Positions 25,256-28,990 of a stretch of DNA of 64,000 nucleotides are shown in pieces. This DNA is from Neisseriaceae bacterium JH1-16 (GTDB lineage: Bacteria > Pseudomonadota > Gammaproteobacteria > Burkholderiales > Chromobacteriaceae). The stretch is from positions 1 through 64,000 of the forward strand of contig JAPDNP010000004.1 of assembly GCA_025989215.1 (NCBI GenBank), read 5' to 3'. The notes under the pieces were generated by a model, which was not told the DNA's origin, ran no database searches, and worked only from the letters and a program-made list of their open reading frames with translations. The first letter of the stretch is position 1; each line of letters opens with the position of its first letter. The position numbers and the translations under genes were made by a program.

Positions 25256-26290
<1,035 letters not shown>

Positions 26291-26404
26291 GGCAGACGCT
26301 TTCATCGTGACGCCCATCCCCATCCGGCCGGATAGGCTGCCGGCCAGGGGGCATTTGGATAGAATGAGACACAGTCAGGGCGGCATACTGCCGCCCCACC
26401 TAAC

Positions 26405-26995: not shown

Positions 26996-28096
26996 TCAGC
27001 CGCCCGGTTTGGGCGTTTCCCCCTGCGGCGCCGAGGCATCCCCAGGCACGCGGGCGCCCGGCACCATCGCGTTGTTGGCGTCCTGGCTATAGGGCGGGAA
27101 GTTGTAGGCTTCGACCGGCAGTGTCTTCAGCCAGTGCTTCAGATCGGGCTGCGCGGACGACAGCGCCACCGGCACCGACTGAGGGGTATGGGTCAGCCGC
27201 GCCAACCGTGCCGGGTCGGCGTCGATCGGCGCCACGGCGGCCTGGGCATCCCGTTCGGCCAAGGCGCTCAGTATGGCCTTGGCCCGTTCGGCCAACGGCC
27301 GCTTGTCCGGATATTCCTTCACCGGTTCGTAGGTGCTCATCACCCAGCGGCCGCGGTCACTGCCCACCATGACCGGCTCGTCGATGATGCGCACCGCCGT
27401 TCCCTTGGCGATCATCGGGAAGATCTGCGCGGCGTCCTCTGGATAGAGGTGGATGCAGCCGTGGCTGGTGCGCAGCCCCACGCCCCAGGGCTTGTTGGTG
27501 GCATGGATGAAGATGCCGGGGAAACCGGTCTGCATGGCCAGCATGCCCATCGGGTTATCCGGCCCCGGTGGCACATACTCGGGCAACTCGATACCCTCTT
27601 CCTTCATGTGCTCGGCGCGGATGCTGGTCGGCACGAACCAGCCCGGGTCGCGGAATTTAGCGACGATCCTGGTGGCACCGAGCGGAGTCGACCAGCCCTC
27701 CCGCGCTATACTGGTCGGATAGGTGATGACCTGCTGCGGTTTGCCCTTGCCAGCTGGCGGGAAATAGTAGAGTCGCCGTTGCGGGATGTTCACCACCACG
27801 CCCTTCCACGGCTTGGGCGGCAGGATGAACTGGCTCGGCACGACGACGCGCTTGGCTCCCAGCCATACCGATACGCCGGGGTTGGCTGCAACGATTTCCT
27901 CGTAGCCCACGTCGAAGTGACGGGCGATGTCCAGCAGCGAATTGTCCGGCGTCGGGCTGACCACTTGCACTTTGCCGACCACGGTGGAGCCGTCGGTCGG
28001 CAGCGTGAAAGTCGCGGCACTTGCCTGGCCGGCCAGCAGGGCTGCGGCTATCGCGATACTGGCCCTGCGCTGGTGAAATATTCTGATCATACTCAT
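26996..28096 (-). CDS. L,D-transpeptidase (YkuD/ErfK type)
   Basis: A periplasmic L,D-transpeptidase of about 366 residues with a signal peptide (cleavage after QASA). A LysM-like segment (DNSLLDIARHFDVGYEEIVAANP) follows, and the YkuD catalytic domain shows SHGCIHLYPED with the active-site Cys. Such enzymes attach Braun-type lipoprotein to peptidoglycan or form 3-3 cross-links. The C-terminal ~100 residues are Ala/Pro-rich. The ATG at 28096 is chosen to avoid overlap with the divergent gene; 28090 and 28117 are alternatives, and none has a good ribosome site. Two DUS-like copies (27254, 27287) both read Leu-Ala-Glu. Confidence 0.9.
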   Translation of the reverse strand: MSMIRIFHQRRASIAIAAALLAGQASAATFTLPTDGSTVVGKVQVVSPTPDNSLLDIARHFDVGYEEIVAANPGVSVWLGAKRVVVPSQFILPPKPWKGVVVNIPQRRLYYFPPAGKGKPQQVITYPTSIAREGWSTPLGATRIVAKFRDPGWFVPTSIRAEHMKEEGIELPEYVPPGPDNPMGMLAMQTGFPGIFIHATNKPWGVGLRTSHGCIHLYPEDAAQIFPMIAKGTAVRIIDEPVMVGSDRGRWVMSTYEPVKEYPDKRPLAERAKAILSALAERDAQAAVAPIDADPARLARLTHTPQSVPVALSSAQPDLKHWLKTLPVEAYNFPPYSQDANNAMVPGARVPGDASAPQGETPKPGG

Positions 28097-28111
28097 GAGT
28101 TGACAATACTG

Positions 28112-28666
28112 ATGCATAGAGTGATTCGACTCGCGTCGTTACTACTGTGGCTGGTGGTCTGCGTACCGTCCTGGTCCGCCCCAGCCCCCTGGGTATTGGT
28201 AGATACGGCGGCACACACGCTGACCGTGTATTCCCACACCGATAAACCGCTCGCCACCTTCGACAACATCTCGCTCGGCCGCGGCGGCGTCGTGCCCTTG
28301 CATTACCACGGTGACGAGACCACGCCGCTGGGCGACTACCGCATCGTGCGGATCAGGCCGTCCACGCGCTTCGACACCTTCATCGAACTGGACTACCCCA
28401 CGCCCGAGCATGCCGAACTGGCCGTCGAAGCCCACCAACTCGATGTCGACAGCTTCGATGCCATCGTCGACGCGCGTCGTAGTCACCAACAGCCACCCCA
28501 GGACACCCCGCTCGGCGGCGGCATCGGCATCCACGGTGTCGGCGAGGGCGACCGGGACGTTCATCAGCAATTCGATTGGACGGAAGGCTGCGTCGCGCTG
28601 AGCAATGCACAACTGCATCGCTTCGCGCATTGGGCAAGAGTCGGAATGCGGGTGGTCATCCGCTGA
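28112..28666 (+). CDS. Small exported L,D-transpeptidase-like protein
   Basis: A 184-residue protein with a signal peptide (residues ~1-22, WSA/PAP) and a minimal YkuD domain: GIGIHGVGEG, then WTEGCVALSN with the catalytic Cys. It is shorter than its divergent neighbour and lacks a LysM-like part. Probably cross-links or trims peptidoglycan in the periplasm. The two start codons are only 15 bases apart, with TTGACA at 28100, so the mRNAs may be leaderless or starts may differ. Start position is uncertain. Confidence 0.85.
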   Translation: MHRVIRLASLLLWLVVCVPSWSAPAPWVLVDTAAHTLTVYSHTDKPLATFDNISLGRGGVVPLHYHGDETTPLGDYRIVRIRPSTRFDTFIELDYPTPEHAELAVEAHQLDVDSFDAIVDARRSHQQPPQDTPLGGGIGIHGVGEGDRDVHQQFDWTEGCVALSNAQLHRFAHWARVGMRVVIR

Positions 28667-28708
28667 ACGCCAGTTGCGCGTCCCGCATGCGGCGCCACCC
28701 GCCAGACC

Positions 28709-28990
28709 TCACTTCATCATGGTCTTCTTGAACATCCGGTTGAGTTTTTCGTTGGTGTCGTTAGCGGTCTGGTTGGCCTGATTTGCTACGCTCAGAGCCT
28801 GATCGGCCTTCTGGTTCGCCGCCGCAGCCGCCTGATTGGCTTGATCGGCACTCTGCTGTGCCTGCGCAGCCTGGGCCTGTACTTTGGCTAGATCATCTTT
28901 GCTGACGCTGGCGCAACCGCCCAGCAACAGTAACGACGCACACGCGACCGAGGCAAGCAACGCGGGACGAACGGACAGAGATCGAAGCAT
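28709..28990 (-). CDS. Lpp/OprI-like small outer-membrane lipoprotein
   Basis: A 93-residue lipoprotein precursor with lipobox LGGC (Cys26) and a mature part of Ala/Gln/Asn-rich heptads (AQAQQSADQANQAAAAANQKADQ), predicted to be a coiled-coil or alanine-zipper trimer. It ends in lysine, as Braun lipoprotein does; that residue is the attachment point for peptidoglycan. GGAGGA precedes the ATG by six bases. It lies convergent to the small L,D-transpeptidase, and the enzyme class that would link it is encoded next door. Confidence 0.88.
   Translation of the reverse strand: MLRSLSVRPALLASVACASLLLLGGCASVSKDDLAKVQAQAAQAQQSADQANQAAAAANQKADQALSVANQANQTANDTNEKLNRMFKKTMMK

Follow-up and report, generated by a model that had tools for sequence, protein, structure and literature searches.

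What does a pair of divergent genes for YkuD-family enzymes do next to a small lipoprotein that ends in lysine, and do the two enzymes work on that lipoprotein in the same way? The question is raised by three genes in the window (the whole stretch of 64,000 nucleotides that was analyzed), which is part of contig 13 in the 4.6-Mb genome of a Crenobacter-like betaproteobacterium of the Neisseriales. All three open reading frames were found where an initial annotation had placed them (Table 1), and its description of two divergent YkuD genes adjoining a lipoprotein gene was borne out, with both products far above the PF03734 cut-off of 23.4 bits (77.4 bits for the ErfK-type protein and 76.3 bits for the small YkuD protein). 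The genome encodes four YkuD proteins (Pfam PF03734) and one alanine-zipper lipoprotein above cut-off; its closest named relative is Crenobacter oryzisoli, whose ErfK-type protein is 78% identical.

Table 1. Features of the gene cluster, in positions of the window
Feature	Position	Strand	Remark
ErfK/LdtPae2-type YkuD gene	26996..28096	minus	likeliest start ATG 28096, which precedes the signal peptide
Small YkuD gene	28112..28666	plus	184 aa
Lpp/OprI-family alanine-zipper lipoprotein gene	28709..28990	minus	93 aa
Gap between the divergent YkuD start codons	28097..28111	none	15 bp
Codon of C-terminal Lys93, proposed attachment residue	28712..28714	minus	read from sequence

The gap between the divergent YkuD starts is so short that ordinary promoters have no space there; a scan for promoters and terminators performed at chance level and did not explain the arrangement. 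An upstream ATG at 28117 is an alternative start for the ErfK-type gene (373 aa; open reading frame 26996-28117, minus strand) and, if used, makes the starts of the two YkuD genes overlap; near-abutting or overlapping YkuD starts are also present in a relative of the same genus (G001) and in G012. Beside the cluster lie a gene for a CDF cation-efflux transporter (25256-26323), whose product has a long loop of His-Asp repeats, and, divergent from it, a gene for a CsoR/RcnR-type metal-sensing repressor (PF02583; 26570-26845); the two are probably a metal efflux pair.

A check of cluster conservation covered 61 relatives. All three genes occur together in the window's genome and seven others (G000, G001, G002, G008, G010, G011, G012, and G018). 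In a genome of another family (G051) the lipoprotein gene adjoins the small YkuD gene and the ErfK-type genes lie elsewhere, and in four genomes of one further genus (g9) it adjoins the ErfK-type gene and the small YkuD gene is missing. The same partners were found among 80 named loci in Chromobacteriaceae, Chitinibacteraceae, Thiobacillus, an Oxalobacteraceae metagenome-assembled genome, Porticoccaceae, Halieaceae, Halomonas, and Ectothiorhodospiraceae, the 80 loci listed including none from Pseudomonas. Two gene orders occur: the lipoprotein gene, a reversed small YkuD gene, and the ErfK-type gene; or the ErfK-type gene followed by the lipoprotein and small YkuD genes on the opposite strand. 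The ErfK-type genes of Nitrosomonas, in contrast, have neither partner nearby. The initial annotation called such a system better known in Gammaproteobacteria. This fits the published record, but among genomes the pair is widespread in betaproteobacteria as well as in gammaproteobacteria.

In a class-wide test of 143 genomes sampled evenly over the class, the lipoprotein scored above cut-off in 30; an ErfK-type gene was present in all 30 and less than 3 kb away in 24. The small YkuD protein was found at a strong score in 32 of the 143 genomes, including 24 of the 30 with the lipoprotein (Fisher P = 3.7e-15, or 1.4e-6 within ErfK-positive genomes; both values are optimistic because the tests ignore the shared ancestry of the genomes). 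The two genes were within 3 kb of each other in 13 cases and were often unlinked. When weak lipoprotein matches are counted, 29 of the 32 genomes with a small YkuD protein have the lipoprotein; in the other three, the small YkuD gene stands at a contig end (two genomes) or carries a stop (one genome). The association between the small YkuD protein and the lipoprotein is strong and holds also where the genes are unlinked. Such co-occurrence shows a shared pathway, not a particular reaction. Since the same genes recur as a cluster in other genera and families, and given the class-wide sample, a chance arrangement is excluded.

The lipoprotein belongs to the Lpp/OprI family: it scores 65.6 bits against the NCBIfam model NF040598, "Lpp/OprI family alanine-zipper lipoprotein" (cut-off, 43), and 50.2 bits against PF11839 (cut-off, 23.1). 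Its lipobox, LGGC, ends in Cys26 (codon 28915-28913) with Ala at +2, the residue associated with sorting to the outer membrane, and the mature protein of 68 aa has the C terminus ...MFKKTMMK, in agreement with the initial description of an alanine-zipper lipoprotein with Lys as its last residue. "Lpp-like," as it had been called, is right at the level of the Lpp/OprI family, but the protein is kin to OprI, with its alanine zipper, and not to E. coli Lpp; PF04728 (Lpp sensu stricto) matched nothing in this genome at an E value of 0.001, and the E. coli control was positive. A search for homologues without the C-terminal Lys, which the initial annotation had named as counterevidence, found none: all 51 homologous lipoprotein loci end in Lys, next to a penultimate position that takes ten identities, and all 51 have Ala at +2 after the lipid-bearing Cys. 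Mature lengths among the homologues range from 59 to 108 residues and equal 3 modulo 7 in 30 of 44 distinct sequences, a pattern in which the rod lengthens and shortens by whole heptads; the window's lipoprotein has two additional residues near its N terminus, not within the heptads. The protein might instead be a free coiled coil with no covalent bond, its Lys being retained for some other reason, and there are precedents, in that licanantase, a trimeric alanine-zipper lipoprotein, is reported to have been recovered from the Acidithiobacillus secretome (PMC4137666), and even in E. coli the bound share of Lpp is only about one-third (PMC8263019). We consider this very improbable given the invariance of the terminal Lys beside a variable neighbor and the linkage of the lipoprotein to ErfK-type genes.

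The ErfK-type protein (366 aa) comprises a signal peptide, a weak LysM-like segment, the YkuD domain with catalytic Cys214 in the motif SHGCIH (codon 27457-27455), and a C-terminal extension. It matches the NCBIfam models LdtE, PRK10190, and PRK10260 over some 230 aa with E values of 1e-43 to 1e-48, at scores that do not reach the E. coli equivalog cut-offs of these models (149 to 165 bits versus 480 to 583); the nearest solved chains are 9tyw and 4lzh (over 230 to 280 aa). We propose, by analogy, that it is a lipoprotein-anchoring L,D-transpeptidase: this role is drawn from LdtPae2, an ErfK-lineage enzyme of Pseudomonas aeruginosa and the sole one there to attach OprI, through the C-terminal Lys of OprI (PMC10434034). 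The two remaining YkuD proteins of the genome, at contig 15:144860-145267 (SHGCVR; a second ErfK-like protein) and contig 16:104556-105026 (SLGCVR), both have Arg in the motif and are candidates for 3-3 cross-linking or for a second anchoring enzyme. 3-3 cross-links are made by YnhG in E. coli, and it is improbable, but conceivable, that the ErfK-type protein is itself such a cross-linker, or is inactive with His for Arg, so that the lipoprotein is anchored by the ErfK-like protein of contig 15 or by none. The motif of the ErfK-type protein departs from the published one for L,D-transpeptidases, (S/T)XGCh(R/N), in having His in place of Arg/Asn, and the functions of these enzymes do not track their lineages (PMC10434034). 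Nevertheless, 33 sequences retain intact Cys and Ser residues alongside this His (a Gln in one of them), Thiobacillus has Arg in an identical gene arrangement, and the ErfK-type gene remains beside the lipoprotein gene; that the ErfK-type enzyme would anchor the lipoprotein covalently is very probable. Within its clade the exceptions to His are the Arg of Thiobacillus and the Gln of Laribacter, and on a tree of 80 ErfK-type sequences the His (with the one Gln) requires two changes; the motif reading of the 80 loci left out 11, whose codons fell beyond the region matched or whose motifs escaped an overly stringent pattern.

Two further observations concern the distribution of this gene. Three Acidithiobacillaceae loci (L088, L093, and L096) have His-type ErfK genes with no lipoprotein detected in their flanks; Acidithiobacillus is known for licanantase, an alanine-zipper lipoprotein. 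The clade of the window's ErfK-type gene also includes one from the bin named Desulfobacteraceae bacterium UBA5616 (L081), which suggests a transfer or a mixed bin.

The small YkuD protein differs at the active site. It has a signal peptide and, like the ErfK-type protein, the catalytic Cys and His of the family (here Cys160 and His141), and Cys160 lies within DWTEGCVA (codon 28589-28591), so that Ala162 occupies the position of the transpeptidase Arg. An alignment of 36 homologues has in common W-T-x-G-C-h-A, HG, and a G-[DE]-x-x-TP-x-G loop, and Ala at Cys+2 is present in all 36; among the YkuD proteins of the genome, only this one has it. Absence of the transpeptidase Arg is a feature of DpaA and of L,D-carboxypeptidases (PMC8263019). 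This invariant Ala led to rejection of the view of both YkuD proteins as transpeptidases: only the larger protein is ErfK-type, and the small one looks hydrolytic. That the small protein is after all a second transpeptidase, acting in lipoprotein anchoring or 3-3 cross-linking, is quite unlikely; it has the domain and catalytic residues for this and lies near the B. subtilis transpeptidase YkuD in structure (Z, 14.4), but Ala replaces Arg/Asn in 36 of 36 homologues, and Craterilacuibacter and two Crenobacter species have an ErfK-type gene beside the lipoprotein gene without any small YkuD.

A profile of the small YkuD family aligned with E. coli DpaA at an E value of 2.7e-5 and 25% identity, with the catalytic Cys residues matched, and the aromatic residue at the position of DpaA Tyr109 is present (Phe87; Phe or Tyr in 36 of 36). 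DpaA of E. coli is inactive without Lys83 (PMC10653827), which in the profile alignment is Leu63 here and hydrophobic or variable in the family, a His or Arg following one residue later in all 36 homologues; Lys130 and Tyr131 of DpaA loop L3 are likewise absent, position 136 being an invariant Gly and position 137 variable in the 36 sequences. With the Lys83 and Lys130/Tyr131 positions occupied by other residues and an extra segment (about 23 residues), the protein was not filed as DpaA. DpaA proper was not found when the E. coli protein was searched against the genome (best E value, 0.4), and plasmid records yielded no useful relatives of the small YkuD protein. Among the nine genomes with the lipoprotein but without the long form, six have shorter GCIA proteins with a DpaA-type Lys (in GHKQ or a similar sequence), a comparison made post hoc; such proteins are also present in three genomes that lack a match to the lipoprotein. 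The pattern fits replacement of one form, the shorter DpaA-like protein or the longer small YkuD protein, by the other.

Because phmmer found no match to the small YkuD protein in the PDB under an E value of 0.05, fold prediction and a structure search were used. The AlphaFold2 model (pLDDT, 93.8) was closest to Pgp2 (Z, 16.2; root mean square deviation [rmsd], 1.9; 129 residues), followed by Csd6 (Z, 15.3, but rmsd 6.4), YkuD of B. subtilis, Bd1075 (Z, 14.3), and mycobacterial transpeptidases (Z, 13.7 and below); DpaA ranked 45th (Z, 11.8). The modeled protein thus looks nearest to hydrolytic YkuD enzymes. The presence of Pgp2, Csd6, and Bd1075 among these neighbors, together with the lack of the Arg in L,D-carboxypeptidases, could mean that it acts on tetrapeptides, shortening them to tripeptides and thereby restricting the donor supply of the anchoring enzyme, and leaves the lipoprotein bond untouched. 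We consider this unlikely. Csd6 Trp158 is the D-Ala-pocket Trp of the carboxypeptidase (PMC10653827), and its position, two residues before the catalytic His, is taken by Gly139 in all 36 homologues (the equivalence of Gly139, Csd6 Trp158, and DpaA Met133 being aligned by sequence, not by coordinate superposition); moreover, trimming by itself offers no obvious cause of the co-occurrence with the lipoprotein. Release of the lipoprotein is preferred over carboxypeptidation because, by the published criterion, the invariant Gly leaves no D-Ala pocket, and we give about an even chance to the reading that the small YkuD enzyme hydrolyzes the bond between lipoprotein and peptidoglycan.

Our combined results suggest the following mechanism. 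The lipoprotein and both enzymes are inferred from their signal sequences to be exported; the lipoprotein would be acylated on Cys26 and, with Ala at +2, sorted to the outer membrane, where its heptad-repeat part would fold as an alanine-zipper coiled coil. From a tetrapeptide stem the ErfK-type enzyme would remove D-Ala4 and bond diaminopimelate, through its L-center carboxyl, to the amine on the side chain of Lys93. Hydrolysis of the Lys93-diaminopimelate bond, with release of the lipoprotein, would most likely be the task of the small YkuD enzyme without the Arg, which would also be secreted. On balance, the cluster is probably a reversible tether of the OprI kind between outer membrane and peptidoglycan, with one anchoring and one releasing YkuD enzyme. 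The outer-membrane tethering module named in the initial annotation therefore remains likely as far as the Lys-ended lipoprotein and the anchoring-type YkuD beside it are concerned, but with a second YkuD that looks hydrolytic. More tentatively, and with a somewhat less than even chance of being right, the small YkuD proteins may form a separate subfamily of peptidoglycan-protein amidases for OprI-type lipoproteins, which would recognize their substrate without Lys83 and take over in part from DpaA-like enzymes in beta- and gammaproteobacteria; with lipoproteins whose lengths change by heptads, the tether would then be both reversible and, over evolution, adjustable in length.

Linkage and co-occurrence point to an enzyme family that is uncharacterized but has a known partner, so that its reaction is directly testable. 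If the small YkuD proteins release OprI-type lipoproteins, reversible tethering would be general in beta- and gammaproteobacteria and not a peculiarity of E. coli. The lipoproteins also offer a natural length series, mostly in steps of seven residues, for the relationship between tether length and periplasm size, which has been studied with Lpp in E. coli (PMC5736177, PMC8824477).

The core of the cluster, lipoprotein plus ErfK-type enzyme, is a system of the OprI/LdtPae2 kind and is not new, since that system is known from P. aeruginosa. What goes beyond it is the linked Arg-less YkuD subfamily, for which a releasing role is about as probable as not. In both species an alanine-zipper lipoprotein with a C-terminal Lys is paired with an enzyme of the ErfK lineage (LdtPae2, PA14_27180), but OprI ends in Arg-Lys and the window's lipoprotein in Met-Lys, and the P. 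aeruginosa enzymes follow the motif (S/T)XGCh(R/N), in contrast to SHGCIH here. P. aeruginosa also has a separate YkuD protein with an SXGChA motif, the Arg-less LdtPae3, to which a role in release was assigned tentatively (PMC10434034), so that each of the three roles put forward for the cluster has its counterpart in P. aeruginosa; LdtPae3 is described as closely related to YafK, whereas the small YkuD protein is divergent, has an extra segment, and is encoded inside the cluster. Pgp2 of Campylobacter jejuni and Csd6 of Helicobacter pylori, the closest solved structures to its model, share the Arg-less active site but are longer (286 to 316 aa versus 184 aa) and have the D-Ala-pocket Trp where the small YkuD proteins have an invariant Gly. 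The Lpp system of E. coli, with LdtA, LdtB, and LdtC, differs from the one described here, where PF04728 is absent, the cut-offs of the ErfK/LdtE models are not reached, and Lys83 of DpaA is missing. It is nevertheless alike in plan: a lipoprotein rod is linked by its C-terminal Lys to diaminopimelate, as proposed here from sequence, and the enzymes that attach it and detach it (DpaA, also called LdtF or YafK) both belong to the YkuD family.
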